Part shown: positions 707 through 15,217 of the stretch, piece by piece
Layout: every line of letters begins with the position of its first letter
How positions within the stretch are numbered: position 1 is the stretch's first letter
IMG/VR virus record: IMGVR_UViG_3300049783_001579
Location: 1 to 26,468 of that record
Length of the DNA: 26,468 nucleotides
Strand: one strand, 5' to 3'
DNA from: a virus
Notes under the pieces: model-generated
What the model saw: the letters and a program-made list of their open reading frames with translations, nothing else
The model's database searches: none
Told to the model about the DNA's origin: nothing
Translations under genes and position numbers: made by a program

Positions 707-1555
707 ATGTCATTATTTAAAGATAATGCATGGGTATATGATTTAGAACAATTTCCAAATTTTCACTCTGGTATATTTTATAATATAAATACAGGTGAAT
801 ACAGAGAGTTTGTAATACACAAATCTAGAAATGATATTAAAGAGTATATCAAATTTTTAGAATCATGTGATGTATTAATAGGGTTTAATAATATTAATTA
901 TGATTACCCTTTACTGCATTATTTACTAACTCATAAACATTGTTCAGTTGAGGAACTGTACAGAGAATCACAACGTATAATAAAAGAACTATTTCCAGCA
1001 ATTAAAATGAAAAACGTTCTTATTAAACAAGTTGATTTGTTTAGAATTTGGCACTTTAATAATAAAGCAAGAATGACTAGTTTGAAAAAACTACAAGTTG
1101 CTATGAGATGGAAAAAAGTACAAGACTTGCCATTACATTATACAAGTTTTATTAAAGAAGAACAAATTCCAGAAATACTAAAATACAATAAAAATGATGT
1201 TGATTCAACGTATCAATTTTTTATCGAATCTAAACAAATTATAAAGTTAAGAGAAGATATAAGTGAAACGTATAATATTGATGTTATTAACAAATCTGAT
1301 GCGGGAATGGGAGAAGATATATTTGCTTCTTCTATGTCTAAAGCATTAAATGTTTCTATGTATGATCTTAAACAGCTAAGAACACATAGAGATACTATAA
1401 ATTTTAATGACTGTATTCTTCCATATGTTAAATACGCAAGTGAAGAGTTTAGTACATTATTGAATAAATTAAAAAATACAATTATTTCAGAAACAAAAGG
1501 CTCTATTAAAGATAGTGTCATTTATAAAGGTTTTAAATACGATTTTGGAACGGGT
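707..1555 (+). CDS. Family B DNA polymerase, exon 1 (3'-5' exonuclease domain)
   Basis: This is the N-terminal 283 residues of the phage replicative DNA polymerase, carrying the proofreading exonuclease. The DnaQ-like motifs are visible: Exo I YDLEQ (D12, E14), Exo II FNNINYD (D66) and Exo III YNKND (Y160, D164). The reading frame runs on to a TAG at 1565-1567, but family resemblance stops at FGTG. The conserved continuation GIHGC resumes at 4243. Joining 1555 to 4243 keeps the frame and gives a 607-residue protein with exonuclease then polymerase domains in the normal order. Without splicing, translation would give a 286-residue exonuclease-only product ending KLN. Confidence 0.9.
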
Positions 1556-1569
1556 AAACTTAATTAGAT

Positions 1570-2334
1570 ATGAACATAATAAATAATTCTAATTCTACAT
1601 ATAATTTAACAGAAAATAGATGTGGAGATAATTTTATGAATAGAGGAGGAGATAAACATGATTTTATTATAACAATACCAAAAACTTATTCAAAAATAGG
1701 ATACTCATTAAAAATAGCTAAGGATTTATTTAAGGCTAATGTAGTAGAAGAAAATGAAAATTTTAAAATAATCTTTGGTGATAAAAAAGGAATGTATCAA
1801 CTCTATTTTAGATATCTTAGAGATGAATTTAAAGATGAAACAGATTGTACTATAAGAATATACGAGTTAAAACACAAAAAACCAAACTGGTCTTTGTTGT
1901 TTTGCGCATATTTAATAATGCAATGTAAAAAAATGCCTGACTACTCATTAAATGGAGGATTTATAAACTCTTATCCTAGTTATGGCATGGCACAACTTGG
2001 TGGATATAATTATAAAAACATAGCACCTTTCTTAATTACAGAAGAGTTTTTTATAGATTACTTTAATGATTCTAAGTTCAAAGAAAAAACAGTATCTGGA
2101 AATGGGATGCTTTATAATAGTTATTATAAATTTGCAATAAATACAAAAAAAGAATGGGAATGTTATAAAGAATTTTTTAAACATTATGATAATTTACAAG
2201 CACCTTTTCTAAATTTAATTTCTATTGAAGAAAGAACTAACTTGTACGATTTAGGTAAATTCACTAAATTAGGTAAAATATTAGATCCTTTGAATAAAAG
2301 GTATATTAAAAAACAAATAAAAATACAAGCATGA
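1570..2334 (+). CDS. Hypothetical 254-aa intron-encoded protein
   Basis: I do not recognise this protein and see no nuclease motif. It is mixed alpha/beta in appearance, rich in aromatic residues, with a central segment (KPNWSLLFCAYLIMQCKKMPDY) and a Gly/Tyr-rich stretch (NGGFINSYPSYGMAQLGGYN). The ATG at 1570 follows the exon 1 TAG by two bases. An in-frame ATG at 1636 (MNRGGDKHDF) is an equally good start, because the intervening residues are Asn-rich and look like extended leader sequence. The end overlaps the next gene by ATGA. It lies in the presumed P1 loop of the intron, so it may be cargo, or ordinary phage genes moved there. Confidence 0.65.
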   Translation: MNIINNSNSTYNLTENRCGDNFMNRGGDKHDFIITIPKTYSKIGYSLKIAKDLFKANVVEENENFKIIFGDKKGMYQLYFRYLRDEFKDETDCTIRIYELKHKKPNWSLLFCAYLIMQCKKMPDYSLNGGFINSYPSYGMAQLGGYNYKNIAPFLITEEFFIDYFNDSKFKEKTVSGNGMLYNSYYKFAINTKKEWECYKEFFKHYDNLQAPFLNLISIEERTNLYDLGKFTKLGKILDPLNKRYIKKQIKIQA

Positions 2335-2915
2335 ATGTAATTTGTAAAGACAAGAAGAAATTTTCTTTAACAGTAGATAAGCCTTATGAGGTTTTAGAAG
2401 AAAATAATAGTCGTTTTACCATCATTAATGATAATGGTAAAACACAAAAGTATAGTAAACTTTTATTTGAAGAAGAGGTTATTGTACCTGATGAAAGTAC
2501 ATCAAATAATATTATTGAAACTATTTCTATATCAGATCAAATTATTTTTGTAGTTGATGGTGAAGAAGTATCAGTAGAAAATATTACTTTATCTGAAGAC
2601 ACAGAAATGAGCTGTGGTGTTCATCAAACATATAATATTTCAGGACTAATTGATGATTTAATAAAAGTTTTACCAGAAAGAGATAATCTTCGAAATGAAG
2701 TAATTGCATATATTGTAAAAGAAGTATTAGTACTTCATGAGCAAGAAGACTCTTGTGCTTTTAGGTTATTGAGTACTAATACTAATTCAACTAATTATTC
2801 TTATGTTGAAAATGCATTAGATCATTTAACTACAAGAAAAATGACTTCTCACAATCCTAGCTCAAAAAATGAGATTACTTTGTGGGTTGTGTTAGGTGCT
2901 TCATTAAGAAATTAA
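2331..2915 (+). CDS. Hypothetical 194-aa intron-encoded protein
   Basis: The N-terminal 45 residues look like a small beta-barrel (SH3/KOW-like) module: FSLTVDKPYEVLEE, then FTIINDNGKTQKYSKLLF. Modules of this kind are common in small phage proteins. The middle is acidic and beta-rich (residues 50-85). The C-terminal 100 residues are helical with a Leu-rich stretch (ISGLIDDLIKVLPERDNL). I recognise no enzyme motif. The ATGA overlap with the gene before and the one-base gap to the next gene suggest a co-translated trio (1570-3204) located within the presumed intron P1 loop. Confidence 0.65.
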   Translation: MNVICKDKKKFSLTVDKPYEVLEENNSRFTIINDNGKTQKYSKLLFEEEVIVPDESTSNNIIETISISDQIIFVVDGEEVSVENITLSEDTEMSCGVHQTYNISGLIDDLIKVLPERDNLRNEVIAYIVKEVLVLHEQEDSCAFRLLSTNTNSTNYSYVENALDHLTTRKMTSHNPSSKNEITLWVVLGASLRN

Positions 2916-2916
2916 T

Positions 2917-3204
2917 ATGAAAAGTACAGACATTTTAAAAAAAGAAATAAACTTGCTGGAACATAAACTTTCCAGCAAGTTTATTAAATCTGAAATCAAA
3001 AATGTTATAGAAAGTAAGATAAAAGACTTACAAAGTAAAATACCAAAAAATAAAATAGGTTACGTAAATGATTTTACTAAACCTAAATGGATAGATAATA
3101 GTTCTTCCATGTGCACAGGATGTCGTCGTAATTATCTTTTACCAGGCGAAGCTTTTTGTGAAGTTTGTGAAGATTCATATGAAAATAACTATCTTGGTAT
3201 TTAA
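2917..3204 (+). CDS. Hypothetical 95-aa protein with C-terminal zinc-ribbon-like cysteines
   Basis: The N-terminal half is Lys/Glu/Leu-rich and probably coiled-coil (KKEINLLEHKLSSKFIKSE). The C-terminal third carries CTGC and CEVC about 14 residues apart, which is a plausible four-Cys zinc site, followed by an acidic end. The gene contains a perfect 15-bp inverted repeat near its start, listed separately. It ends six bases before the first recognisable intron core element. No function is assigned; a small nucleic-acid- or protein-binding zinc protein is the best guess. Confidence 0.6.
   Translation: MKSTDILKKEINLLEHKLSSKFIKSEIKNVIESKIKDLQSKIPKNKIGYVNDFTKPKWIDNSSSMCTGCRRNYLLPGEAFCEVCEDSYENNYLGI
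2947..2984 (+). repeat. Perfect 15-bp inverted repeat within a coding sequence
   Basis: ATAAACTTGCTGGAA (2947-2961) is exactly repeated in inverse orientation at 2970-2984, with an eight-base loop CATAAACT. In RNA this gives a very stable hairpin for such an AT-rich sequence. It begins about 30 bases after the ATG of the 95-aa ORF and is not followed by a T-run, so it is not an ordinary terminator. It could be a structured part of the intron P1 loop, an RNA processing site or a translational control hairpin. Confidence 0.75.
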
Positions 3205-3690
3205 AAAACTGCCCCCTTGTACAGTAATGTGCATTGAACAACTCGGAATCCGTAAGGGGTATGTATACATCAAAAATAATGGTATATATGCTAACGGGGA
3301 AACTCTTAATTAATTAAATATGAAACAACAAAAAATAGTAGAATCTAGAGACTTATGGAAAGCCTTAATAGATGGATGGATAGTTAAGTTTGATTATCGT
3401 AATGCTAGAAAACATTGTGGGTATATAGTTGAAAAAGACAATCCCGTGCCGTCAATTGATAATGTTATATTAATAGCAGCTAGAACTTTACATCAAAATA
3501 GTAAAATTTTTACTTATACAGAATGTGAAAATCTTGCTAGAATACAATATAGTATAGAATTACAAAACGGCGTAGAGACTGACAACGAGCAGCCTAAAAT
3601 AAATACATGTAGAAAAGGTTTTAATGGTTGTGATAACTATAAACAAGACTCTGTATGTAGATGTAAATAGGTTGATGAGACAGTCCAGAC
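3205..3690 (+). ncRNA. Group I intron catalytic core (td-like)
   Basis: Proposed pairings, found by eye: P1 = exon GGGT (1552-1555) with GCCC (3211-3214), with the splice-site U facing G; P2 = CCCTT (3214-3218) with AAGGG (3254-3258), enclosing two small hairpins; P3 = TGCT (3289-3292) with AGCA (3588-3591); P4 = ACGGG (3294-3298) with CCCGT (3443-3447); P7 = GACTG (3577-3581) with CAGTC (3681-3685); P8 = AGCCTA (3591-3596) with TAGGTT (3668-3673). Their order matches a group I ribozyme. The remaining 3' elements are after the 168-aa ORF. P5 and P6 were not resolved, and P6 and P8 contain coding sequence. Confidence 0.75.
3320..3670 (+). CDS. Hypothetical 116-aa protein overlapping the intron core
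   Basis: The N-terminal part reads like a compact phage protein (RDLWKALIDGWIVKFDYRN, then EKDNPVPSIDNVILIAARTL). The last 22 residues are Cys-rich (CRKGFNGCDNYKQDSVCRCK). The ORF covers the 3' strand of P4, the 5' strand of P7, the P3 3' strand and the P8 loop, and its TAG stop lies in the P8 3' strand. The start ATG follows TTAATTAATTAAAT. Translation through the core would compete with folding. The Cys-rich tail, which corresponds to ribozyme sequence, may be only a read-through of structured RNA. I am moderately sure that the N-terminal half is coding. Confidence 0.5.
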   Translation: MKQQKIVESRDLWKALIDGWIVKFDYRNARKHCGYIVEKDNPVPSIDNVILIAARTLHQNSKIFTYTECENLARIQYSIELQNGVETDNEQPKINTCRKGFNGCDNYKQDSVCRCK

Positions 3691-3712
3691 TACAACTATT
3701 TAACAAAATAAT

Positions 3713-4219
3713 ATGATAAAAGAAAATAAAGCATGTGAAGAAATACCTTTAGAAGTAAAAAAAGAAGTCTGTGATAGTAAAGAAACAAGTAAATTAAAAT
3801 ATACTGACTTTATAGATCCTGAAACACCTCCTAAATATTCTGAAACAAGAGGTTTTCATAATTGGACAATGTATGGTAGATTTAATTATAAAAATTGTTC
3901 AATATGTATTAGTGATTTTCAATCAGGATGTAATATTGGTGTTTTGTATAATTATACAGGAATGGGTTATGGATATGCTAAAGATGATAAAATAGAAAAC
4001 AATGACTTTACTAAACTTTTAAAAATGGTTATAGTTGAGCTAGAAAAACCTGGTGAGCATAACTATGGTAAACTAATTACTTCTAATGGTACATCAAATA
4101 AATATATTAGACCTTTTGAAGATGCTGGTTTTAAAACAATTGATATTATCCAAAACTTAGCACATGGTCGTGAGTCTACAGATAAACAAACGTTTATGCA
4201 TTATAATTTTGTTAAATAA
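3713..4219 (+). CDS. Hypothetical 168-aa intron-encoded protein
   Basis: I do not recognise this protein. It has a Lys/Glu-rich N-terminus, then an apparently globular region with aromatic and Gly-rich segments (FHNWTMYGRFNYKNCSICISDF, GCNIGVLYNYTGMGYGYAK). It ends with a segment (KYIRPFEDAGFKTIDIIQNLAHG) loosely reminiscent of the end of an acyltransferase-type fold, which is not enough for a call. It lies between P7/P8 and the P9-like hairpin, a usual place for an intron ORF, but no homing endonuclease signature is visible. It stops two bases before the P9-like hairpin. Confidence 0.65.
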   Translation: MIKENKACEEIPLEVKKEVCDSKETSKLKYTDFIDPETPPKYSETRGFHNWTMYGRFNYKNCSICISDFQSGCNIGVLYNYTGMGYGYAKDDKIENNDFTKLLKMVIVELEKPGEHNYGKLITSNGTSNKYIRPFEDAGFKTIDIIQNLAHGRESTDKQTFMHYNFVK

Positions 4220-4242
4220 GCTTAGGTGACTAAGTGTGGTAG
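4220..4242 (+). ncRNA. Intron 3' end: P9-like hairpin and terminal G
   Basis: CTTAG (4221-4225) pairs with CTAAG (4230-4234) across a GTGA loop, a typical stable tetraloop of the GNRA class. After it come TGTGGTA and the terminal G at 4242, then exon 2 (GGT ATA CAT, encoding GIH). The position fits P9 plus omega-G of a group I intron. The exact 3' splice site is fixed by the polymerase reading frame as well as by the G. Confidence 0.7.
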
Positions 4243-5217
4243 GGTATACATGGTTGTATAAAACCTGGGGTTTATGAAAACTCCGAAACTGAAATAATTG
4301 TAGATATTGATGTAAAAAGTTATTATCCTAACTTAGCAATATCTAATAACTTTTATCCAAAGCATTTAGGATTAAAATTTTGTGGTGTTTATAAAAACCT
4401 TTATGAGGAAAGAAAAAAACATGCAAAAGGAACTCCTGAAAACTATGGATTAAAAATTGCATTAAATGGTGCTTATGGTAAATCTAATGATGTGTACAGT
4501 TTTCTGTATGATCCTAAATTTACTATGGACATAACTATTAACGGACAATTACTTTTAACAATGTTGGCTGAAAAGTTGGTAGACAATATACCTAACTTGA
4601 CAATGTTACAAGTCAATACAGATGGTGTTACTGTTAAAATTAAAAAAGAATACTATGATAAACTTATTAATATATGTAATTCATGGGAAAAACTTACTAA
4701 TTTAGAACTAGAGTACGCTGAGTATTCTAAAATGATAATACGTGATGTAAATAATTATATTGCTGAATATACGAATGGTGATACAAAATGTAAAGGTAGC
4801 TTTGAGATAGAAAGAGACTGGCACAAAGACCAATCTATGAAAATAGTACGTAAATCAGTTTTTAATTATTTTATAAAAAACATACCAATTGACGAAACAA
4901 TTGAAAAAGGAGATGCTTGGGATTTTATAAAAGCTTTTAGTGTTACTAAAGGTTGGACGGCTGAAGAACATACTGTAAAAGGTGTTAATAAGCTTCAAAA
5001 AACAAACAGATACTTAATTTCTAAAAATGGTAATGGTTTTTATAAACATCATGAAGATAATCGTTTACATGCAATAGAAGCAGGATATGGGGTTATAATA
5101 TTAAACGATATTAATAACCCAAATAAATACAGTGATTGTATTAATAGGCAGTATTACATTAAAGAATGCTGGAAAATAATTAATGCTGTTGAAAATAAAC
5201 AATTAACTTTATTTTAA
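4243..5217 (+). CDS. Family B DNA polymerase, exon 2 (polymerase domain)
   Basis: This is the C-terminal 324 residues of the replicative polymerase. Numbering on the joined protein, motif A is DIDVKSYYPNLAI (catalytic D306), motif B is KIALNGAYG (K354, N358, Y361, G362) and motif C is QVNTDGVTV (D410). The canonical motif C is DTD; here its first acidic residue is Asn408. The exon has no start codon of its own before motif A. A GTG at 4492 is internal and would give a fragment lacking motifs A and B. A strong hairpin follows the stop, so this ends a transcription unit. Confidence 0.9.
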   Translation, partial: GIHGCIKPGVYENSETEIIVDIDVKSYYPNLAISNNFYPKHLGLKFCGVYKNLYEERKKHAKGTPENYGLKIALNGAYGKSNDVYSFLYDPKFTMDITINGQLLLTMLAEKLVDNIPNLTMLQVNTDGVTVKIKKEYYDKLINICNSWEKLTNLELEYAEYSKMIIRDVNNYIAEYTNGDTKCKGSFEIERDWHKDQSMKIVRKSVFNYFIKNIPIDETIEKGDAWDFIKAFSVTKGWTAEEHTVKGVNKLQKTNRYLISKNGNGFYKHHEDNRLHAIEAGYGVIILNDINNPNKYSDCINRQYYIKECWKIINAVENKQLTLF

Positions 5218-5263: not shown

Positions 5264-5875
5264 ATGGAAAAAGAATCAGTAATTACTGTATTTGATGAAG
5301 TTAAAAAAGAGTTACTATTAGAGCCTATTTTATATTACAATAACAAAACAATTAATAATTTTTTTTCAAAGAAATTACCATCTATCAATGAGGTTTCTAA
5401 TGAAAATACAGTTGTTGAAATTATTGTACCTGATGACAAAATAACAATAGAATGGGTTTCGTTTTTATGTAGTATAGATTTAAAATGTTTTTATGATGGA
5501 GTTAGTGTTAATATTTATAAAAAAGAACATACTCAACTATCATTTAAAATAACTTTAGTTTTAGTAAATTATTTAATGTTAAAACGTAAATCAATATTAT
5601 CTACAATAACATGGATAAAATATAATTTTCCAACATTAACTAATTGGGAAAAACTAATTTTAGCACATTACAGTAATAATCAAAGTTATCTTGAAAATAC
5701 TATAATACCTAAATGTTATTTAAAAGACTATAGTAAAAACTTTAAAAAATACAAAAAAATAGACTCATTATTTAATAATGAAATACCTGAAGATGTTAAA
5801 AATAAAATATCTTCAGCATTAGACACAAAAAATATTAAAAATATTAAAAAACTATTATGTCAAATAAAAAAATAA
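5264..5875 (+). CDS. Hypothetical 203-aa protein
   Basis: I do not recognise it. The N-terminal 100 residues mix beta and hydrophobic segments (IEWVSFLCSIDLKCFYDGVSVNIYK), the centre has a hydrophobic helix (ITLVLVNYLMLKRKSIL), and the C-terminus is a run of Lys/Asn-rich helices ending in repeated KNIKNIKKL. It overlaps the next gene, the gamma-glutamyl hydrolase-like gene, by 19 bases. It may therefore be translated as the first gene of the amide-ligase block, or be unrelated. Confidence 0.7.
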   Translation: MEKESVITVFDEVKKELLLEPILYYNNKTINNFFSKKLPSINEVSNENTVVEIIVPDDKITIEWVSFLCSIDLKCFYDGVSVNIYKKEHTQLSFKITLVLVNYLMLKRKSILSTITWIKYNFPTLTNWEKLILAHYSNNQSYLENTIIPKCYLKDYSKNFKKYKKIDSLFNNEIPEDVKNKISSALDTKNIKNIKKLLCQIKK

Positions 5876-6558
5876 GAGTATTTTGTCCTAGAACAACTAA
5901 ATATACTTCAAAAGAACTTATTGGGTGGTTACCAAATACAGAACATGCAGATAAAATTGAAGATTGTGATTTGATTATTTTTCAAGGAGGTGCTGATGTT
6001 AATCCATCATTGTATAATCAGTTAGAAAATACCAGAACTAGACCAATGGGACCTAATGCTGAACTTGTTGATATCAATGCATATCGAACAGGAATGATTA
6101 ATAATATACCTATGATAGGTATATGTAGAGGTGCTCAATTACTTACAGTAATGAATGGTGGTAGGTTGATTCAAGATGTTGAAAATCACGGTAAAGATCA
6201 TAAAATTAAATTTAATGATGGAGAAGTGCATTTAATGACAAGTACACATCATCAAATGATGAATCCATTTTTTGATTTAAAAGAAGGTGAGGATTTTGAA
6301 ATTATTGCACAAAGTGAAGTTCCTTTGTCTACTTATTACATGGAAGAAAACGGTATAGATGTTAGACTTGGTTTAAGAACTTATTCTGATAAAAATGATG
6401 TAATTAGAGAACCCGAAATTGTTTTTTATCCAAAAACAAACTGTATGTGTATACAAGGTCACCCTGAATATACATGGGCTAATAAAGAAACAGTAAGTAA
6501 AATCAATAAAATTATTAATGAAAAAATGAAAATTTATGAATCTATGCTTATTGCCTAA
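5857..6558 (+). CDS. Class I glutamine amidotransferase / gamma-glutamyl hydrolase-like (peptidase C26)
   Basis: The 233 residues form a complete flavodoxin-like class I amidotransferase domain. Visible signatures are IIFQGGADVNPSLY (residues 40-53), the nucleophile elbow GICRGAQ (Cys90), STHHQM (129-134) and the His/Glu of QGHPEYTW (H202, E204). All three catalytic residues are present. Proteins of this type (for example PuuD, gamma-Glu-GABA hydrolase) cleave gamma-glutamyl amide bonds and often sit next to GS-like ligases. Here a GS-like ligase lies two genes downstream. It probably hydrolyses a gamma-glutamyl bond in the cytoplasm. The substrate is unknown. It could instead supply ammonia as an amidotransferase subunit. 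Confidence 0.85.
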   Translation: MSNKKIRVFCPRTTKYTSKELIGWLPNTEHADKIEDCDLIIFQGGADVNPSLYNQLENTRTRPMGPNAELVDINAYRTGMINNIPMIGICRGAQLLTVMNGGRLIQDVENHGKDHKIKFNDGEVHLMTSTHHQMMNPFFDLKEGEDFEIIAQSEVPLSTYYMEENGIDVRLGLRTYSDKNDVIREPEIVFYPKTNCMCIQGHPEYTWANKETVSKINKIINEKMKIYESMLIA

Positions 6559-7216
6559 TAATTCAGCACTTATTGAATCATATAAAACTTCATCACCAGT
6601 ACCTAATCTTGTTTTATGTGATAACAAAGGTAACGCTCTTACTGAAAAAGTAAGATGTAAAGATTACTTTCAAGATGTATTCTGGGGACAATACCAAAAA
6701 AAAGTAGGAGAATCCGTTACTAAATATGGTTTTACTTGGAAAGTTATACCTAAATATCATAATAAATTATGGTATTATTTAGGAATGTCTTACATTAATG
6801 AAGATATGAATAATTATTCTAGTAATTTATTATCTTTTTTAAATAAAATTGAAGATAAATTAGGTTTTAAAAAATCAACAATTATTGTAACAGATGATAC
6901 TAAACATCTTTTAATTAGGTTTAATAAATCTTGGACTAAAAAACCATATTTATTAAGTTCTTTTTTGTTATTTAGTAGAATTGGTTTAAAGTATGAAAAT
7001 ACAACAATATCTAATTTTTTAAAAAAATGGCCAGATAGTCAAGAAAAATATGATAATGCTAATATAAGAAATTCGATGCCTCTTTTATTAAAAATAGTAG
7101 ATGGAGTTGTTTTTAAAGATACATGGAAATCTATTAGAGATATTGAGGAATGTCATAGTAATAGCGGTGTAGTCGCTTTTAATAATAAAAATTATAAAAT
7201 TATTAATAATGAGTAA
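6536..7216 (+). CDS. Hypothetical 226-aa protein within the amide-ligase cluster
   Basis: The protein has no family I recognise. Segments such as WGQYQKKVGESVTKYGFTWKVIPKYHNKLWYYL and a later FKKSTIIVTDDTKHLLIRFN suggest an alpha/beta globular protein. The ATG overlaps the preceding gene by 23 bases, and the end overlaps the COOH-NH2 ligase by 8 bases, so it is embedded in the cluster translationally. That makes it a candidate partner, substrate-recognition protein or modification target. It is missing from the enzyme families usually listed in such clusters. Confidence 0.75.
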   Translation: MNLCLLPNNSALIESYKTSSPVPNLVLCDNKGNALTEKVRCKDYFQDVFWGQYQKKVGESVTKYGFTWKVIPKYHNKLWYYLGMSYINEDMNNYSSNLLSFLNKIEDKLGFKKSTIIVTDDTKHLLIRFNKSWTKKPYLLSSFLLFSRIGLKYENTTISNFLKKWPDSQEKYDNANIRNSMPLLLKIVDGVVFKDTWKSIRDIEECHSNSGVVAFNNKNYKIINNE

Positions 7217-8006
7217 AAAAAAAGTTGAGTTTATAGCTTTTGGTACAGATCCTGAAGTTTTCTTAGTTGATAATAAAGGTAATGCTGTATCAGCAGAAGG
7301 TTTGATTGGAGGTACTAAAGAAGAACCTATTCCAATAAGTGAGCATGGTCATGCGTTACAAGAAGATAATGTAATGGTGGAGTTTAATATCCCTCCAGTT
7401 AGAGATGCTGGAAGACTTAAACGAGAAATTTCATTTTGTTTAAAAACTATTAAGAATAGAGTAGGTTATGAAATAGCAATTGTACCATCTATACTTTTTA
7501 CTGAAGAACAGTTATCTACTGACCAAGGAGCTATGTTTGGATGTTCACCAGATAATGATGTATGGTCTAGAATGGAAAATCCAACTGTTGAGCCTGAGGC
7601 AAATAGACGTTATGCAGGTGGTCATATACATATAAGCTACAATAAGTTCACACCAGAAGTCACAGAAGATTTAGTTAAAGCAATGGATTTGTTTTTAGGA
7701 GTACCTTCTGTAATTATGGATAGTGATGAAAATCGTAAACGTGTATATGGTAAAGCAGGTCGTTTTAGATTTACTGAATATGGTTTTGAGTATCGTACAT
7801 TAAGTAACTTTTGGTTAGTAAATGAAGATTTAATGGAATGGGCTTTTAACCAAACTATGCTTGCTATAGATTATGTAAATGAAGAGAATGAAATTAAACA
7901 GTTTGCTGAAAAAATACAAACTTGCATTAACACAAATAATGCAGAGATGGCAAAAGATATATGTAAAGAAAACAATATTAAATTATTACAACATGTTAGA
8001 GTATGA
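7209..8006 (+). CDS. COOH-NH2 ligase, phiEco32-like type 2 (GS/GCS fold)
   Basis: This is a predicted ATP-dependent amide-bond-forming enzyme of the glutamine synthetase/glutamate-cysteine ligase superfamily. Diagnostic segments are FGTDPEVFL at residues 11-19 (E16), VMVEFNIPP (E58), AGGHIHISY (H139, H141) and EYGFEYRTLSNFW (E194, R196). The acidic and His residues should bind the metals and ATP. The length (265 aa) and order match the phage COOH-NH2 ligase family described from phiEco32-like phages, where association with ATP-grasp, amidotransferase and cyclotransferase genes led to a prediction of cell-wall or peptide modification. The acceptor and donor are not known. Confidence 0.88.
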   Translation: MSKKKVEFIAFGTDPEVFLVDNKGNAVSAEGLIGGTKEEPIPISEHGHALQEDNVMVEFNIPPVRDAGRLKREISFCLKTIKNRVGYEIAIVPSILFTEEQLSTDQGAMFGCSPDNDVWSRMENPTVEPEANRRYAGGHIHISYNKFTPEVTEDLVKAMDLFLGVPSVIMDSDENRKRVYGKAGRFRFTEYGFEYRTLSNFWLVNEDLMEWAFNQTMLAIDYVNEENEIKQFAEKIQTCINTNNAEMAKDICKENNIKLLQHVRV

Positions 8007-8814
8007 GCAAATAACTCCAGAAATAATTAAAGAAGTTTTAAATCAAATAGGTGTTGAGGAAGTTGTTTTAGTAGAAGGAGACGAATATGCTTTTAGTGGT
8101 TCATATAAAAGAAGTGATAAGTACTATAATAGTAAAGGTTTTGTGTATGTAACTTTTTTAAAAAAAATTAAAGTAAATAAACTTAATCTCGAAAGCTATA
8201 ATTGCACTGCTTTGCTTAATGGTGAAGAAATTATATTATATGACAGTTCTTTAGAATATCTAGAAAAATCAGTAGCTATTAACAATAGTATTAATATTAC
8301 TTCAAAAGGTGATGTTTTATATTGTTATCAAAATAGGGTTTATTCTCGTCGAGGAAGAATACTATCAGCTATTCCTAAATTATACAAAATAGGAACAATT
8401 AATGAAAATTTAATAGGAAAAAAAATTAAATTAAAAAAAAACATTGATATAATAGGTTTTTATAAAAAAAATAAATGTTTTGGTCTTTGTTATAATAAAG
8501 AATATATATTTAGTCAGAAAGAAGTTATTCATCTTATAAATGATAACTGTTTTGTGAATGACAGTTCTACTCTTTACACTTTACCTTTTGATGAACTTTA
8601 TGAATTAGATATTACATCACCTCTTTTAAAAGAAGGTGATACTGTAAAAATGATAAAGCATGACAAATCAGTAATAGGTTTAAGAGTAGGTGGTGAATAT
8701 ATAACATCTAAAATTATTCAATGTGGTGGAAGTTTTCTTGTAAAAGTTACAGATGGTAATAAATCTTATACTTCAAATATTAAAAATTTTAAAAAAACAT
8801 GTCGAAAAGAATAA
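7993..8814 (+). CDS. Hypothetical 273-aa beta-rich protein within the amide-ligase cluster
   Basis: The start at 7993 (MLEYEQITPEI) is preferred over an in-frame ATG at 7879, because it leaves only a 14-base overlap with the ligase gene. No enzyme motif is visible. The protein looks like several small beta-barrel modules in a row: residues about 28-60, a Lys-rich middle repeat (IGKKIKLKKNIDIIGFYKKNK), and a C-terminal module (LLKEGDTVKMIKHDKSVIGLRVGGEYITS) typical of phage SH3/KOW-like domains. It overlaps the ATP-grasp gene by 16 bases. A scaffold or substrate-binding role is an inference from context only. Confidence 0.75.
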   Translation: MLEYEQITPEIIKEVLNQIGVEEVVLVEGDEYAFSGSYKRSDKYYNSKGFVYVTFLKKIKVNKLNLESYNCTALLNGEEIILYDSSLEYLEKSVAINNSINITSKGDVLYCYQNRVYSRRGRILSAIPKLYKIGTINENLIGKKIKLKKNIDIIGFYKKNKCFGLCYNKEYIFSQKEVIHLINDNCFVNDSSTLYTLPFDELYELDITSPLLKEGDTVKMIKHDKSVIGLRVGGEYITSKIIQCGGSFLVKVTDGNKSYTSNIKNFKKTCRKE

Positions 8815-9656
8815 TTACAAAATTTAGACCAATAATTTTAAGTAGACATCCATCACATAAAGTGTTAAGAGCTGCTTATAAAGCATTACCTTTAAATCCT
8901 TTTAGATCTATTATTAGATTTGGAAGCACTACATCTAAAGAAATGTATGAATTGGGTAAATTTACGTCTCGTCAAAAAATTAAAGTAGAATTAAATTCTA
9001 TCAAAGCTATTGGAAACTCTAGTAATAAAGTTAGAATGAAAGAGTGTTTTGATAAAGAAAATGTAAATACTTGTAAATGGTGGACAAAATTACCTGACAA
9101 TTTAGAGGAACTATCATTCCCTATAATTGCAAAGTTACGTAATGGTTCTCGTGGAAAAGGCATGGAAATGCTAAAAACAGCTAGTCAATTACAATTATTT
9201 ATTAACTCTAAAAACATATCACATTATATTTTTGAAGAGTATTTTAGTGGTATTAGAGAATATCGTATACATGTTAATAAAAATGGTTGTTTTTATACAT
9301 GTAGAAAAATGATTAAATCTGATACTCCTGATGATAAAAAATGGTTTAAAAACGATAGTAACTGTGTTTGGTATTTAGAATCAAATGAAAATTTTGATAA
9401 GCCACTAAACTGGAATAATATTGTAAAAGAATGTGTTAAAGCCTTAAATGCTGTAGGTTTAGATTTTGGTGCATGTGACGTAAGAGTTCAATCAGGAACA
9501 GATAGAGAAAATAACATTCGTCAAAATCCTGATTTTAAAATTATTGAAATTAATTCAGCACCAAGTTTTGGTGAAAAAAACACAACAGAATTAGAAACTC
9601 ATGTAGCAAAAGCTTATGCTGAAATGCTACCTAAATTATTAAGAGAATATGCATAA
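8799..9656 (+). CDS. RimK-like ATP-grasp ligase
   Basis: The 285-residue protein has the ATP-grasp layout. IIAKLRNGSRGKGMEML (109-125) gives the nucleotide-binding Lys112 and the glycine loop. YIFEEYFSGIREYRIHV (143-159) is the hinge. LDFGACDVRV (221-230, D227) and KIIEINSAPSFGE (247-259, E250, N252) give the metal ligands. Enzymes of this type form an acyl-phosphate on a carboxylate and join it to an amine, as in glutamate addition to proteins or small molecules. It overlaps the cyclotransferase-like gene by 8 bases, a pairing seen in butirosin synthesis (BtrJ ligase and BtrG cyclotransferase). The substrate is unknown. Confidence 0.88.
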   Translation: MSKRIITKFRPIILSRHPSHKVLRAAYKALPLNPFRSIIRFGSTTSKEMYELGKFTSRQKIKVELNSIKAIGNSSNKVRMKECFDKENVNTCKWWTKLPDNLEELSFPIIAKLRNGSRGKGMEMLKTASQLQLFINSKNISHYIFEEYFSGIREYRIHVNKNGCFYTCRKMIKSDTPDDKKWFKNDSNCVWYLESNENFDKPLNWNNIVKECVKALNAVGLDFGACDVRVQSGTDRENNIRQNPDFKIIEINSAPSFGEKNTTELETHVAKAYAEMLPKLLREYA

Positions 9657-10041
9657 AGTATTTGTATATGGTACTTTACGAAAAAGTAAAGGTAATCATA
9701 GATTGTTAACACAAATAAATGCTGCTTTTATAGGAAATGCAGTAACAGTTAATAAATATCATCTTACAACAAGTGGTCTTCCGTTTGTAAACAAAAATAT
9801 AGAAACTAGTCAAATAGTTGGTGAAGTATACCAAGTAGATGATAGTGGTTTATCTTCTTTAGACGGATTAGAAGGATACAATCCTAATAACCATGAAGGA
9901 AGTTGGTACAAAAGAGAAGTGATACCAGTTCTTCTAGAAAATGGAAATACTGATGAAGCTGCTTTATATTTTAATGAAGATCAAGGAAATACTGTTGTTT
10001 ATAACGGTGATTTTGTTAACCCAATTACAGAAAAAAAATAA
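9649..10041 (+). CDS. Gamma-glutamylcyclotransferase-like protein (AIG2/GGCT family)
   Basis: The 130 residues form one complete GGCT-type barrel. It opens with VFVYGTLRKSKGNHRLL (the YGTLR substrate loop, residues 7-11), includes LPFV and GEVYQV strands, and carries LDGLEGY with the probable catalytic Glu75. WYKREVIPVLL (86-96) is the usual Tyr/Arg strand. The family releases a gamma-glutamyl group as 5-oxoproline. Next to an ATP-grasp ligase, it most simply removes a glutamyl group that the ligase added. It is separated from the amidotransferase-like gene that follows by only three bases. Confidence 0.88.
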   Translation: MHKVFVYGTLRKSKGNHRLLTQINAAFIGNAVTVNKYHLTTSGLPFVNKNIETSQIVGEVYQVDDSGLSSLDGLEGYNPNNHEGSWYKREVIPVLLENGNTDEAALYFNEDQGNTVVYNGDFVNPITEKK

Positions 10042-10044
10042 AAA

Positions 10045-11394
10045 ATGTGTGGATTATTAGGATATAGCGGTAAACAACCGTTTAACAAAGAAAAACTAAG
10101 ATTATTATTTTATGCTAACGAAACCAGAGGTAGGCACTCTGCTGGTTTTTATAATGAAAATAAAGCAATTGTTTTTGAAAATAGACTAGAAAAAACATTA
10201 GGAGAAGTTTCTGAAAAAATGTTACCAACATTTGAACCTGTTGAAACATCTTTGTTTATTGGTCATACTAGAGCAGCAACCCTAGGTGAAAAAACTATTG
10301 AAAATGCTCACCCTTTCTTATTTGGTAATGTAATAGGTGCTCATAATGGCACATTAAAAAATCATAAATATTTAATATCAAACTATAACAAAGCATTTCC
10401 TAATAGAGGATTTGATGATAAAAATATTAACATGGATTCTAAGATTTTCTTTCATTATATTAATGAAGTAAACTCTTTAGATATTGTTAAAGATTTTGAC
10501 GGTGCTGCTGCATTAATATGGAGAGACGCTAGACATGAAAAAGATATTGTAAATATCTGGAGAAACTATGAGCGTCCTTTGCATTATGGCTATATTGATG
10601 ATGGAATGTATATTTCTTCTGAAAAAGGACCATTAGCAGCTATTGGTTGTGTTGACATTAAAAGTTTTGATGTAAATAAACATTATGAAATTCTAGATGG
10701 TAAAATTTTAAGTGAAACTGTTTTAATAAATTCTCCAAAAAGAATAAGTACAGTTAATGCATTAGCTAATTTTACAGACTACAAGAATGTACCTGAAATG
10801 GTTGATGATATTTTAGAATATTTAAAATTATCTACTACAACACTTTTTTATCATGATATTTCAAATGAAATTCCAGTTAGTTCTTTAAAAATTCCAGGAA
10901 AAAGAGGTATACTTTATAAGTATAAAAATGGTGAAGAAGACAAAATCATTACTGAAAAAGGTAAAGATAATCGTGTATCTACTGTTACTTATTTTGATAA
11001 TAAATTAAATACATTTATTATAATAACTACTTATTTATCAGGAACAATCACTAAACGTAGAGTTTTTATTGATAGTTCTTTTGCAAATAGCTTTTGGGAT
11101 TTTATTGAAAAAAAGAGAAATGGCTTGTTGGGAACTAAGAAGAACGATAAGCCAGCGTTTGAAAATAATTTCTTAGAAGAAGATGATGATGAAGAAGATG
11201 ATGGTTTTGTTGAGTTACCAGTAAGTGAAATAAGATTATTACTAAATAATATAAATGTTAGTGTTTCAAAAGTTATTAATCATTTAAATGATGCAAACTA
11301 TAATAACAAAATTATAGAAGAGCTTGTTGTCACACAACATGACGTTGCTGAATTTTTAAAATTAGTAGAAATAGATGAAACTAAAGAGGTCTAA
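10045..11394 (+). CDS. Class II glutamine amidotransferase-like Ntn hydrolase with C-terminal extension
   Basis: MCGLLGYSG places the nucleophile Cys at residue 2, exposed after Met removal. Other class II amidotransferase motifs are TRGRHSAGFY (27-36), HTRAAT (74-79), NAHPF (87-91) and AHNGT (99-103). This domain releases ammonia from glutamine, or cleaves a gamma-glutamyl amide as a peptidase. There is no synthase domain such as the GlmS isomerase domain. Instead residues about 230-360 are an unassigned beta-rich region. It is followed by an acidic tract (EEDDDEEDD at about 378-386) and a helical tail. The ligase that uses the ammonia would be a separate protein. Overlap with the next gene, an amidoligase, is 20 bases. 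Confidence 0.87.
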   Translation: MCGLLGYSGKQPFNKEKLRLLFYANETRGRHSAGFYNENKAIVFENRLEKTLGEVSEKMLPTFEPVETSLFIGHTRAATLGEKTIENAHPFLFGNVIGAHNGTLKNHKYLISNYNKAFPNRGFDDKNINMDSKIFFHYINEVNSLDIVKDFDGAAALIWRDARHEKDIVNIWRNYERPLHYGYIDDGMYISSEKGPLAAIGCVDIKSFDVNKHYEILDGKILSETVLINSPKRISTVNALANFTDYKNVPEMVDDILEYLKLSTTTLFYHDISNEIPVSSLKIPGKRGILYKYKNGEEDKIITEKGKDNRVSTVTYFDNKLNTFIIITTYLSGTITKRRVFIDSSFANSFWDFIEKKRNGLLGTKKNDKPAFENNFLEEDDDEEDDGFVELPVSEIRLLLNNINVSVSKVINHLNDANYNNKIIEELVVTQHDVAEFLKLVEIDETKEV

Positions 11395-12949
11395 AAATAA
11401 AAAAAAAGTAAATTCAAAAGTAATTGATTCTTTAGGTAGAAAAATATCATCAGAAGATGCCGTCCTTATAGATGGCATCTTCTATGATGCTACTAAAAAT
11501 AACCCACCTTTAATTATAATGAGAAAAAACCATTTTGGTTATTCATATCCAAGTTGTGTGTTATTTGATGAAGAAAGCTGTATAAAATATAAAAACAAAT
11601 ATTATCATAAAAATGACATGATTAAAATTTATTTAAAAGACGGAAAAGAATTAATTTTTTCAGATAGAAATGATGCTTGTTGTGAGATAGGTGAAGAAAA
11701 GTTTAGTAAATTAATTCCTGGTAGAAATCAAGACGAATTATTATTTTTTGAAACACTAATTATTGCATCTAAAAGAAAATTTGGAATTTGTTTAAAAGAT
11801 ACTGAATATTTAAAACCATTAAAAGAATGTGTATCTGACAAAAAAGATAAAGTACAATATAAAAAAACTAAATTTTCTGCATCTTCTTCAGATTCATATA
11901 CTAAAAAAGAAGCTATTAAATTAGGTGTTTCAACAGCCACTACTATTGGTACAGGGGGATTAGACTATACTTTTGGTATAGAAATTGAAACTATTTCAGG
12001 AAAAATACCTGATTGGCAATATAAGCATAATTCTTTAAACTTAGATGCTGTACATGATGGATCTTTAAGAGATGAAGATGGTAATGTTTATGGTGGTGAA
12101 TATGTAACAGGTGTTTTAAAAGGAGATGCTGGATTAGCAAATCTTTATCGTTGTGTTAAAACAATTCATGAATATTGTAGCATTACTAAGCAATGTGGTA
12201 TACATGTACATGTAGGTGGAGCTAATTTTAATGAAAAGTTTACTATTGATGCTTATTTACTAGGACTACAAATAGAAAGAGAAATATTTGAAATATTTCC
12301 TCCTTCTAGAAGAACTAATGATTATACAGGTTTTTTAAAAAAATGGGACTTTAAAAAATACATTAGTGAACATGGTGACAAATATGGCTATGCTTTAGCA
12401 TGGGAAGCTTTATTTAAAGATATGGCAAATATGTCTCATGTAAAAAATAGAGAGTTAGGTGAAAATTTAAATAGATTTATAAATCATCCTGGAGGCAGAT
12501 ATACTGACAGATACAGTCATAATGTTCCTTTAGCAAATTTATATCGTTACAAATGGTTAAACCTTATTACTTGCAACTTTAATACTAGAAATGTTGAACC
12601 TAAAAAAGATGGATTAAATAATGGTGTTCCATTTACATTAGAATTTAGACCACATAGTGCTAGTATGAATTTTAAAAAAATTAAAAACTGGTTGTTATTT
12701 TGTATGGCTTATGTTAACTATGTTGAAAACAACAGTAGTGAGATAATTAAAAGAGATGATATAACAATTAGTGATATTTTAACGTTTACTTATGGTAAAA
12801 CTAAAGTAAATCATACAGATATTATTAATTATTTTGAAGAAAGAAAAAATAGGTTTAAAGGTAATGCAGGTAAAACTAATGAACTTTTAGAATACAGTGA
12901 AAAAGTTTCACATAATGCAACTAGAACTAGAGAAATAATAAACACTTAA
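11375..12949 (+). CDS. Putative amidoligase (GS/GCS-fold, amidoligase_2 type) with long N-terminal extension
   Basis: The catalytic domain begins near residue 197: LDYTFGIEIETISG (E203, E205), LDAVHDGSL (D228), YGGEYVTG (E242), CGIHVHVGG (H277, H279) and TLEFRPHSASMN (E423, R425). These are the metal- and ATP-binding positions of the amidoligase family related to glutamate-cysteine ligase. The first 190 residues are extra: a Lys-rich start, then two or three small beta modules (VLIDGIFYDAT, KYKNKYYHKNDMIKIYLKDG) and a Ser/Lys-rich linker. The extension could dock a partner or substrate. It is the second GS-like ligase of this cluster and not a close duplicate of the one at 7209. Confidence 0.88.
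   Translation: MKLKRSKNKKKVNSKVIDSLGRKISSEDAVLIDGIFYDATKNNPPLIIMRKNHFGYSYPSCVLFDEESCIKYKNKYYHKNDMIKIYLKDGKELIFSDRNDACCEIGEEKFSKLIPGRNQDELLFFETLIIASKRKFGICLKDTEYLKPLKECVSDKKDKVQYKKTKFSASSSDSYTKKEAIKLGVSTATTIGTGGLDYTFGIEIETISGKIPDWQYKHNSLNLDAVHDGSLRDEDGNVYGGEYVTGVLKGDAGLANLYRCVKTIHEYCSITKQCGIHVHVGGANFNEKFTIDAYLLGLQIEREIFEIFPPSRRTNDYTGFLKKWDFKKYISEHGDKYGYALAWEALFKDMANMSHVKNRELGENLNRFINHPGGRYTDRYSHNVPLANLYRYKWLNLITCNFNTRNVEPKKDGLNNGVPFTLEFRPHSASMNFKKIKNWLLFCMAYVNYVENNSSEIIKRDDITISDILTFTYGKTKVNHTDIINYFEERKNRFKGNAGKTNELLEYSEKVSHNATRTREIINT
11452..11483 (+). repeat. 10-bp perfect inverted repeat in amidoligase gene
   Basis: AGAAGATGCC (11452-11461) is complementary to GGCATCTTCT (11474-11483) with a 12-base loop. 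It lies about 80 bases into the amidoligase gene, and no T-run follows. In such AT-rich sequence a 10-bp perfect stem with four G-C pairs stands out. It may slow ribosomes or polymerase, or be chance. Confidence 0.45.
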
Positions 12950-12954
12950 AATAT

Positions 12955-13680
12955 ATGTGCTTAATTATAGTAAAAAAAAGAGGTACTAAAGTAACTTCTG
13001 AGCTGTATAAATCTATATCTAGGTCATATGCTTTAAGAAACAAAGATGGGTTTGGATTTTCTATCAAAAAACCAAATTCAGATATATACATTTCAAAAGG
13101 ATACTTAAATTTAAAATCTTTTATACTAGCAATTAAATCTCATCGCCCTTCAACAGGTGATGAATTAATGATACATTTACGTAAAGTATCTGCTGGTAAA
13201 AAAAACGTTGAAAATTGTCATCCTTACGTGTGTTCTGATAAACATGATGAAATAATTCAGGAAGAAGGGTATGTAAAGAAACCAGTAATGTCACATAATG
13301 GTACTTTTATAAAGTATAGTTATGACAAAGATCATTCTGATACATATCTTTTTGTAAAAAATGTTTTATCAGATATAAATATGGCTAATATTCTTAAATA
13401 TTTAAATAAAAAAGACTATACCTCTTCTATATCATTGTTTATTCAAACATCAAGAGTTGCTATTATGTATCCTAACATAAATAAAAAGTTTAACAACCCT
13501 TTGTGTATGTTAGGTAAATGGGAATTCGATGAATTAAGTGGTTTATATTTTTCTAATACTAGCTATCTTGGAGATAATTGTCCCCAACATGGAGAAAATT
13601 TTAAAAATATGCCTTATTGGGAAAAAGAAGAAAGAAAAACAAAAAATAAACAAATAAGAATGCCTTTAGTAATGGATTAA
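12955..13680 (+). CDS. Second class II glutamine amidotransferase-like Ntn hydrolase
   Basis: MCLIIVKKRG again puts Cys at residue 2, as expected for an N-terminal nucleophile. NKDGFGFS (34-41) corresponds to the RxxDGxG-type loop, MIHLRKVSAG (about 74-83) to the HxR strand, ENCHPYV to the NxHP loop, and MSHNGT (about 111-116) to the oxyanion HNG motif. At 241 residues it is a single domain. It is clearly different from the larger homologue at 10045, so the cluster has two. It probably deamidates glutamine or cleaves a gamma-glutamyl or N-terminal amide for one of the two ligases. It closes the block; a helicase gene follows four bases later. Confidence 0.83.
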   Translation: MCLIIVKKRGTKVTSELYKSISRSYALRNKDGFGFSIKKPNSDIYISKGYLNLKSFILAIKSHRPSTGDELMIHLRKVSAGKKNVENCHPYVCSDKHDEIIQEEGYVKKPVMSHNGTFIKYSYDKDHSDTYLFVKNVLSDINMANILKYLNKKDYTSSISLFIQTSRVAIMYPNINKKFNNPLCMLGKWEFDELSGLYFSNTSYLGDNCPQHGENFKNMPYWEKEERKTKNKQIRMPLVMD

Positions 13681-13684
13681 AAAA

Positions 13685-14863
13685 ATGAAAATAGACTTAA
13701 AAAAAGAAGAAATAAGTCTAGATGCTTTTTCAGCATGGAAAGCGCAAAGTAAAAAAGGAACTGTAGAAATGTCTACTGGTTCTGGTAAAACCTTTGTTGC
13801 TCTCCATGCTGTAAATAGTATGAAAGACAACAATAGAATTATATTTTTATTTGAAGTTACTGATAGAAAAAAAGAAATAATTAAACAAATTCAGTTGTAT
13901 AATCAAGTATATAAAACTAATTTATTTACTAGATACAGAATTGAATATAGAACTTATCAGTCAGCTTATAAATTAGAGTCTGAGAAATATGATTTAGTTG
14001 TTGCTGATGAAATACATGACAGTTTAACACCATCTTATTTTGAGTTTTATAATAATAACACTTTTGATGCTATAATTGGTCTATCAGCAACTATAGATAA
14101 AGAAAAATTATATAGTAATGGTTATACTAAAGGAGATTATCTTGACTCAGTAGCACCTATATGTTTCACATACACAGTAAAAGATGCTCAATTAGATAAT
14201 GTCCAACGTAAAATTAATGTTTATGTTATTTCTCATCAGTTAGATACTATAACTAAGAATATTACAGCAGGTAGTTTAAAAAAACCTTTTCAAACAACAG
14301 AGTATAAAAACTATGAATTTTGGAACAAAATGTTTAATCAATCTTTTTATTTTGAAGAAGGTAGTGAGTTTATGATGAAAAAATCAAGCAAAAAACGTGC
14401 TGAAATTCTGTATAACTTACCTTCAAAAAAGAAAGAAGTTTTAAAATTAATTGAATATTTAAAAGGAAAAAGTATTATATTTGCTAATTCTATAAGTGCA
14501 TTATTAGAAATAACTGATAATGTAGTTAGCTCTAGAAATAAAGATAACGTTAATGAAAAAATAAAAAATGATTTTCAATCAAATGTAATAAATGTAATTG
14601 GTTCATTTAAAAAATTAGCACAAGGTGTTAACTTAGACGAGTTGGCTAATGTTATTTTACATAGCTATTATGGTAAGACTAAAGATTTTATACAAAGAAT
14701 AGGAAGATTACGTAAAGACGGTGATAAAATAGGAAATGTATTTATATTTGTTACAAAAGGTACACAAGAAGAAAAATGGTTTAACTTGATGTTTCAAGAC
14801 GACACTTTTAATATTATTTATTGCGTTAATGTTGAAGATTGTTTGCTTAAAATGAAAAAGTAA
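13685..14863 (+). CDS. SF2 DEAD/DEAH-type helicase
   Basis: The 392 residues hold two RecA-like domains. Motif I is STGSGKT (30-36), motif II DEIH (108-111), motif III SAT (134-136) and motif VI QRIGRLRKDGD (about 337-347). It resembles the short phage helicases related to UvsW/RecG-type branch-migration or type III restriction-like helicases, probably acting in recombination-dependent replication. The N-terminus before motif I is short. It starts four bases after the amide cluster's last gene, and the spacing suggests the same transcript, but I see no functional link to that cluster. Confidence 0.88.
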   Translation: MKIDLKKEEISLDAFSAWKAQSKKGTVEMSTGSGKTFVALHAVNSMKDNNRIIFLFEVTDRKKEIIKQIQLYNQVYKTNLFTRYRIEYRTYQSAYKLESEKYDLVVADEIHDSLTPSYFEFYNNNTFDAIIGLSATIDKEKLYSNGYTKGDYLDSVAPICFTYTVKDAQLDNVQRKINVYVISHQLDTITKNITAGSLKKPFQTTEYKNYEFWNKMFNQSFYFEEGSEFMMKKSSKKRAEILYNLPSKKKEVLKLIEYLKGKSIIFANSISALLEITDNVVSSRNKDNVNEKIKNDFQSNVINVIGSFKKLAQGVNLDELANVILHSYYGKTKDFIQRIGRLRKDGDKIGNVFIFVTKGTQEEKWFNLMFQDDTFNIIYCVNVEDCLLKMKK

Positions 14864-14867
14864 AAAA

Positions 14868-15053
14868 ATGGGATTAAAAGAGGAATATGACAACTTAGTA
14901 AACGTTTTAGAAGATTTAGAAAATTATTATGAACAAACTGATCCTGGATGTAGTAAAGATGTTAATAAACTAAAAGAATATTTTAATTATTATTATAGTT
15001 ATGAAGTTTCGGATTATGTAATACATTTATTAACAACTAGAATATTATGTTAA
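14868..15053 (+). CDS. Hypothetical 61-aa protein
   Basis: It is an acidic, Tyr-rich, probably helical small protein (EEYDNLVNVLEDLENYYEQ, then KLKEYFNYYYSYE). The ATG follows TAAAAAA, four bases after the helicase stop. No family is recognised. Its end overlaps the next small ORF by seven bases. Confidence 0.6.
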   Translation: MGLKEEYDNLVNVLEDLENYYEQTDPGCSKDVNKLKEYFNYYYSYEVSDYVIHLLTTRILC

Positions 15054-15217
15054 ATACAATTGATATGTTACTAGAGGAACATGGTATAAAAAACTTATGC
15101 ATGAAATGTTGTAACACAGGAGAATATTATAATGGAAAAGAAATTAAACACTGTAAGTGTAAACTTACAAAAAATCAAGAAAGCTCAAATAACGCCAAAT
15201 TGTTATATAATTCTTAA
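15047..15217 (+). CDS. Small 56-aa zinc-ribbon-like protein
   Basis: The ATG at 15047 overlaps the end of the 61-aa gene. The translation has CMKCCNTGEYYNGKEIKHCKC at residues 18-38, i.e. CxxC and CxC pairs spaced as in a zinc ribbon or knuckle. That is unlikely to be chance in such Cys-poor sequence. The last 86 bases overlap the start of the next gene in another frame. Either both are read, or one start is further downstream. The role is unknown; the location points to replication. Confidence 0.55.
   Translation: MLNTIDMLLEEHGIKNLCMKCCNTGEYYNGKEIKHCKCKLTKNQESSNNAKLLYNS

Follow-up and report, generated by a model that had tools for sequence, protein, structure and literature searches.

Interrupted polymerase gene

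The window, a virus record of 26,468 bases (positions 1 to 26,468 of IMG/VR record IMGVR_UViG_3300049783_001579), has a family B DNA polymerase gene (PolB) in two parts, separated by an insert of 2,687 nucleotides (nt). By its sequence features the insert is a td-type (phage T4) group I intron. Five open reading frames (ORFs) of 254, 194, 95, 116 and 168 amino acids (aa) cover 93% of it. Coordinates are given in Table 1.

Exons 1 and 2 joined form a complete family B polymerase. A profile search places the join at positions 332|333 of PHROG 1252 (DNA polymerase), with zero residues lost or duplicated; motifs A (DIDVKSYYP), B (KIALNGAYG) and C (NTDG) are in exon 2. The joined protein aligns without gaps through (F/V)G(T/L/V)GGIH with uninterrupted polymerases from the crAss-like phages cr125_1 and cr52_1, from ctYwJ313, and from a Proteus phage and an Edwardsiella phage. 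The initial annotation had proposed that joining 1555 to 4243 restores the polymerase, with the exonuclease part upstream and motifs A, B and C downstream of the intron. The profile join and the exon content bear this out, and the intron-less relatives have boundaries that match 1555/4243. The last base of exon 1 (T) differs from the last base of the intron (G), and the first base of the intron (A) differs from that of exon 2 (G), which makes the predicted splice point unambiguous. The gene is continuous at the insertion site in 77 of 80 more distant polymerase loci; a contig end truncates two of the others, and the last has a short break at another place. In one distant PolB (L201:3153-3252) the frame is broken by about 100 bases just upstream of the site, possibly a frameshift.

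Among the relatives found in the collections searched, only two carry the interruption, both at the same site. L001 is 100% identical to the window over 11.2 kb. L002 is divergent, with 82% aa identity in exon 2. Comparison of the window and L002 shows exon 2 to be under purifying selection (differences at the three codon positions of 0.15/0.06/0.35).

The exon 1 frame is open from 707 to 1555 and then reads K-L-N-stop (1565-1567). Directly 5' of exon 2 there is a TAG (4240-4242) and there are more in-frame stops, and the earliest in-frame ATG, GTG or TTG is at 4492, which is 3' of motif A. An intact polymerase domain can be made only after splicing, since no usable start precedes motif A in exon 2. 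Split polymerases exist in some T4-like phages, and the locus might be read as a gene fission in which the exonuclease and polymerase parts are two polypeptides, the intervening genes are ordinary ones and RNA is not spliced. The exon 1 frame meets its own stop within a few codons of the site and could give a 286-aa protein, and the genes between the exons are packed tightly, as in an operon. However, the in-frame stop before exon 2 and the position of its first start would leave a subunit that lacks motif A, and the same is true of L002, where the first ATG in the exon 2 open frame is at 6283. A covarying group I core and a matching guide sequence also lie between the exons. Gene fission is therefore highly improbable.

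Conserved group I intron core

Five introns were compared, those of the window, L002, L133, L238 and the cultured crAss-like Cellulophaga phage phi14:2. The 5' exon of the window ends in U (U1555), which forms a U.G pair opposite G3211 in P1, and this U.G is kept in five of five introns. The final base of the intron is G4242; G also ends the introns of L002, phi14:2 and L238. The P and Q motifs are ACGGGGAAACUC / GACAAUCCCGUGCC, which are td-like and are common to the window and the viral locus L143; the Q motif gave 0 matches in 100 shuffles. The initial annotation had placed the 5' site after U, noted the terminal G and called the insert a group I intron. All of this holds, with the added evidence of the P and Q motifs and of helices P1, P2, P3, P4, P6 and P7 kept by paired changes.

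The pairing of P1 is the same in L002, L238 and phi14:2, and both sides are altered in L133. P3 is CUCG/CGAG in the window vs CUCA/UGAG in L133 and phi14:2. P4 is ACGGG/CCCGU, and P6 pairs positions 3448-3452 with 3567-3571. P7 (3577-3581 with 3681-3685) is GACUG/CAGUC in the window vs GACUA/UAGUC in L002 and L133. P8 has 6 bp in the window (3591-3596 with 3668-3673) and no clear assignment in L002. The P9 hairpin of L002 differs in sequence (ACUUG-GUAA-CAAGU). ACU before the guide could form a 3-bp P10 with exon 2 GGU (as many as 5 bp in L002), which agrees with the predicted 3' splice site. The P/Q and P6/P7 arrangement is td-like, which suggests subgroup IA; P7.1/P7.2 extensions were not made out in the window.

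Table 1. Positions of the exons, intron core elements and ORFs in the window
Feature	Positions	Strand	Description
PolB exon 1	707..1555	+	3'-5' exonuclease region, FGTG end; PHROG 1252 positions 50-332, E 2.7e-63
Group I intron, td-like (probably subgroup IA type)	1556..4242	+	2,687 nt; exon join, core motifs, covariation
P1 5' strand GGGU|A	1552..1556	+	Last four exon bases and first intron base; pairs with 3210-3214
ORF1	1570..2334	+	254 aa; N-terminal CGDNFM motif; starts 2 nt past exon 1 read-through stop
ORF2	2331..2915	+	194 aa; family in L002, L238:3488-4081, phi14:2 gp039
ORF3	2917..3204	+	95 aa; two CxxC motifs (zinc-ribbon-like); homologue L002:3503-3823
Internal guide sequence, P1 3' strand UGCCC	3210..3214	+	P1 pairing in five introns
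P2 hairpin, GUAA tetraloop	3218..3233	+	Three pairs altered on both sides among five introns
P3 5' strand CUCG	3242..3245	+	Pairs with 3586-3589; tentative
P4 5' strand	3294..3298	+	P motif 3294-3305 exact match; invariant pairing with 3443-3447
ORF4	3320..3670	+	116 aa; traverses P4', P6, P7 5' and P3' of ribozyme core
Q motif, P4 3' strand and P6 5' strand	3437..3452	+	GACAATCCCGTGCC exact
P6 3' strand, R motif/P7 5' strand (3577-3581), P3 3' strand (3586-3589)	3567..3589	+	P7 paired change
P8 3' strand, J8/7, P7 3' strand (S motif)	3668..3685	+	93.9% identity with L002 over 3669-3701
ORF5	3713..4219	+	168 aa; P9 region; possibly GNAT-like; homologue L002:5437-5994 (37%)
P9 hairpin, GUGA tetraloop (4220-4235), and 3' end, terminal G 4242	4220..4242	+	Counterpart in L002
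PolB exon 2	4243..5217	+	Motifs A, B, C, QLTLF end; PHROG 1252 positions 333-654, E 2.9e-99

In the five-intron alignment, 99% of the helix cells are paired vs 27-49% in slid versions, and six helix pairs are changed on both sides vs 2.2 in shuffles. This covariation strongly supports the proposed helices, short of proof, because a set of five sequences is small and the helices were selected ahead of the count. The count replaced a substitution-only simulation of helix retention (0.002). A pairing of CCCCUU...AAGGGG (3212-3263) was also considered as a helix and is ruled out by the compact relatives, in which the CCCC is the guide sequence and the GGGG is in a small hairpin after P3.

The P and Q motifs occur together at 20 other viral loci, identified by searching for the pair. 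Eleven such loci were scanned with Rfam, and one (L143) was recognised (RF00028, 60 bits), the other ten being below the gathering cut-off. A scan of genome contigs with a 15-base pattern gave chance matches only.

DNA conservation between the window and L002 is in islands of 88-100% identity: 3205-3336 (89%), 3429-3462 (100%), 3669-3701 (94%) and both intron ends. No other DNA in the locus is as conserved as these core islands; the proteins of the intervening ORFs have only 34-41% identity. The intron might be a dead or decaying one that is unable to splice, with PolB inactivated or dispensable, and the rapid divergence of the ORFs, the lack of a homing endonuclease and the lack of an Rfam match are in line with this. 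Such decay is extremely improbable given the conserved core islands, the helices kept by paired changes and the selection on exon 2; no second polymerase was seen in the window.

The reading of the insert as a td-like group I intron of PolB that is spliced at 1555/4243, has taken up cargo genes and has no recognisable endonuclease is assigned a probability of about 0.93. Several points weigh against it. Splicing is predicted from the sequence. The helices were picked by eye before the pair changes were counted. P3 (4 bp, one paired change) and P8 are short, partly tentative, and the weakest helices, and P1 has only 5 bp to close an unusual 1.65 kb loop. The collections searched hold one divergent relative, L002, with the same insertion. 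Rfam was run on the whole window, on the intron and on the core by itself; it gave no relevant match, and none to RF00028 at the gathering score or at E 10. The initial annotation had proposed such a search as a check, and the absence of a match is misleading as a refutation. The miss is probably due to the ORFs that split the core; introns of Bastillevirinae are likewise only partly matched by models, owing to ORFs in their loops (PMC11878797).

Gene cargo of the intron

In 500 base shuffles of the intron the longest ORF never exceeded 100 aa. The packing is tight: ORF1 begins at 1570, just after the exon 1 read-through stop (last base 1567), and shares 4 nt with ORF2; ORF3 begins 2 nt after ORF2 and ends 5 nt before the guide sequence. 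In L002 the exon 1 read-through stop overlaps the ORF1 start (ATGA).

ORF1 has a homologue in the L002 intron (37% aa identity). It resembles phi14:2 gp036 and the first intron ORF of L238 weakly (hhalign E 0.002-0.03), and this homology is unproven. A structure model of ORF1, with a low-confidence mean predicted local distance difference test score (pLDDT) of 48, gave no fold match. L002 also has a free-standing relative of ORF1 with CGDNFM directly after PolB (L002:7015-7605, to 7608), which is absent there in the window. ORF3 has zinc-ribbon matches in Pfam that are weak and below cut-off. At its start, window positions 2946-2985 represent a near-perfect inverted repeat, AATAAACTTGCTGGAA...TTCCAGCAAGTTTATT, which is the source of spurious Rfam microRNA matches.

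The core-encoded segment of ORF4, KDNPVPS...NGVET, is also present in L002, L146, L238 and phi14:2 gp038. This type of overlap between an ORF and the core is known from td and has been termed core creep (PMC3073962). The ORF5 model has a mean pLDDT of 45, and nearly all of the fold matches listed are acetyltransferases, a hint that ORF5 is possibly a GNAT-like acetyltransferase. Neither ORF1 nor ORF5 has a match in the annotated phage collection.

Insertion in the P1 loop

The guide sequence is separated from the 5' splice site by ORFs 1-3, so that the P1 loop is 1.65 kb in the window; in compact relatives it has 5-12 nt. The stretches from 5' site to guide are GCGU|AAAUUAUGCGC in L133, GGGU|AGACUAAAUUGCCC in L238, GGGU|AGACAGAUUUGCCC in phi14:2 and GCCCU|AAACUUAUUGGGGC in L235. 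Staphylococcus phages have a match to the island 3206-3241 at the 5' end of an interrupted gene, immediately next to the 3' end of its exon. This match and the compact P1 of the relatives show that ORFs 1-3 are an insertion in the P1 loop. Neither the five ORFs nor this insertion was part of the initial annotation.

The P1-loop genes could instead be a later nested element that has to be removed before the PolB intron splices. The short P1 loops of the relatives would fit, as would the form of the inserted block, a tidy three-gene set. But there is no second intron core or Rfam match in 1570-3204, and the ends of the block differ between the window and L002, in which the last ORF before the guide is a different gene that ends 3 nt before it. 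A nested element is thus improbable.

ORF2 family and related introns in other genes

Full-length members of the ORF2 family are present at four separate loci: in the PolB introns of the window and L002, in the ATPase intron of L238, and as phi14:2 gp039. In the data examined it is full-length only inside group I introns. The L238 and phi14:2 introns split the Walker A motif of the ATPase between G and K (SKVG|KSQ). Removal of the intron restores the ATPase, and the homologue in the window (15659-16732) is uninterrupted. ATPase and PolB introns have the guide UGCCC in common, and both exons end in GGGU.

The phi14:2 intron (L230:6015-8630, record positions 13150-15765) is td-like, has not been annotated and interrupts the Walker A motif of a DnaB/RecA-like ATPase. 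It contains four genes annotated as hypothetical, gp036-gp039, none with an endonuclease match. The PolB of phi14:2 (gp029 and gp031) is also split, in motif A (L230:3446-3865; PHROG 1252 positions 357|358). This interruption is likely a group I intron with a 58-aa non-endonuclease ORF, gp030. No description of the phi14:2 introns was found in the literature searched, which covered few subscription papers.

Other related introns were seen. In the metagenomic contig L238 (1502-4156) the ATPase intron has a LAGLIDADG gene together with the ORF2-family gene, and its P7 has one mismatch. The near-identical contigs L133 (10138-11154) and L146 have a related intron near motif VI of a superfamily 2 (SF2) helicase gene, with a 275-aa ORF between P3 and P4. 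Their P8 module differs; that of L146 is longer than in L133, and loop modules are thus gained or lost in frame.

Homing endonuclease

ORFs 1-5 have no homing endonuclease match in Pfam, PHROG or NCBIfam. The L002 intron carries a LAGLIDADG_2 gene (E 8.6e-33) in the P8 region, between P7 5' and P7 3', with its own promoter-like sequence TTG-N-TAnnTTTG. The initial annotation had described the insertion as expected for a homing element. The intron family and the conserved site fit that description, but the window copy is without a detectable homing endonuclease, while L002 has one. In the simplest history suggested by these sequences, an endonuclease of the kind kept in L002 was probably lost in the window lineage, and the window intron is presumably no longer able to home by itself. 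An endonuclease of unfamiliar type, or one acting in trans, may also serve it.

Phage affiliation and neighbouring genes

The window primase is related to crAss-like phage primases (30-32% identity), and the ORF2 family is present in phi14:2. On this sequence evidence the window phage is an uncultured relative of crAss-like phages, and its host is likely a member of the Bacteroidota. Adjoining the polymerase, positions 5857-12949 hold an amidoligase, glutamine amidotransferase, ATP-grasp and COOH-NH2 ligase cluster, as in some other phages.

Proposed splicing and translation

In the td-like intron reading, the ribozyme core (3208-3700 and 4220-4242) would fold after transcription, and the guide UGCCC would pair with the exon end GGGU|A across the 1.65 kb P1 loop. 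Guanosine would then attack after U1555, in two-step guanosine-initiated splicing, and exon 1 would be joined to exon 2 after G4242 to give the mRNA for the full polymerase. The intron would have acquired phage genes: three in the P1 loop (ORFs 1-3), one that runs through the core (ORF4) and one near P9 (ORF5). Translation of ORFs 1-5, which we infer from their sequences, would be from unspliced RNA or the excised intron, and ribosomes leaving exon 1 would reach ORFs 1-3. Exon translation aids splicing in phage introns (reviewed in PMC3073962), and by analogy exon 1 translation likely aids splicing of the window intron. Because the last stop codon of the P1 loop is within the ribosome footprint of the guide, translation and P1 formation may be mutually exclusive.

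A joint reading goes further and is doubtful as a whole. Here the td-like introns of Bacteroidota phages would be gene carriers, the ORF2 family would be an intron-dedicated factor, e.g., a new maturase, and the P1-loop genes would make splicing and translation compete. Ribosomes past exon 1 would traverse ORFs 1-3 and halt 3-5 nt before the guide, and polymerase mRNA would form only when this traffic drops.

Comparison with known introns and significance

The window intron is like T4 td and td-like (IA2) phage introns in its P/Q arrangement, the U at the 5' site and the terminal G. It is also like them in its insertion in a conserved part of a replication gene, and it has an ORF that overlaps core helices, for which td is a precedent (PMC3073962). 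The td intron differs in having one GIY-YIG ORF, in P6; that of the window has five ORFs without any recognisable endonuclease among them, and three genes in its P1 loop.

For PolB of crAss-like Delta and Zeta phages, group I introns have already been published (Yutin et al. 2021, PMC7886860). These are elements of the same kind, in the same type of gene of related phages, but were found primarily via endonuclease domains, and the window intron is without such a domain. The phi14:2 ATPase intron shares with that of the window the guide UGCCC, P2, P3, P4, P6, P7, the ORF2 family, a core-encoded ORF4-like protein and the lack of a recognisable endonuclease, and the second phi14:2 intron interrupts PolB, as in the window. 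The phi14:2 introns differ in their insertion sites (ATPase Walker A, PolB motif A), and the ATPase intron has a compact P1 loop, with its cargo in the P3-P4 region, P5 loop and P9 region. Bastillevirinae introns are also in phage polymerase genes, often with partial model matches owing to loop ORFs, but have a mean length of 802 nt and mostly one coding sequence or none, with loop proteins classed as endonucleases (PMC11878797).

Introns with non-mobility genes are known elsewhere, e.g., in coral mitochondria (PMC3073962). The coral ND5 group I intron, as cited in that review, has 15 genes in P8; as described there, it is similar in holding several unrelated genes in one group I intron, and differs in being mitochondrial, with host genes, in another loop and with non-homologous cargo. 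In the literature searched, no description was found of a phage intron with a three-gene P1 loop, or of a protein family common to introns of different phage genes.

The common view of phage group I introns is of an RNA shell that encloses a single homing endonuclease, and it is often by this enzyme that they are found. The window intron has five other genes and the ATPase intron of phi14:2 has four; in neither is an endonuclease recognisable. Such introns thus escape endonuclease-based searches, and the host gene looks broken; that of the window also escapes Rfam. Since phi14:2 is cultured, the splicing of its ATPase intron is directly testable. The P1-loop gene set is a testable case of competition between translation and splicing for a replicative polymerase, and the ORF2 family, restricted to introns, in more than one gene, offers a clue to a new function associated with introns.

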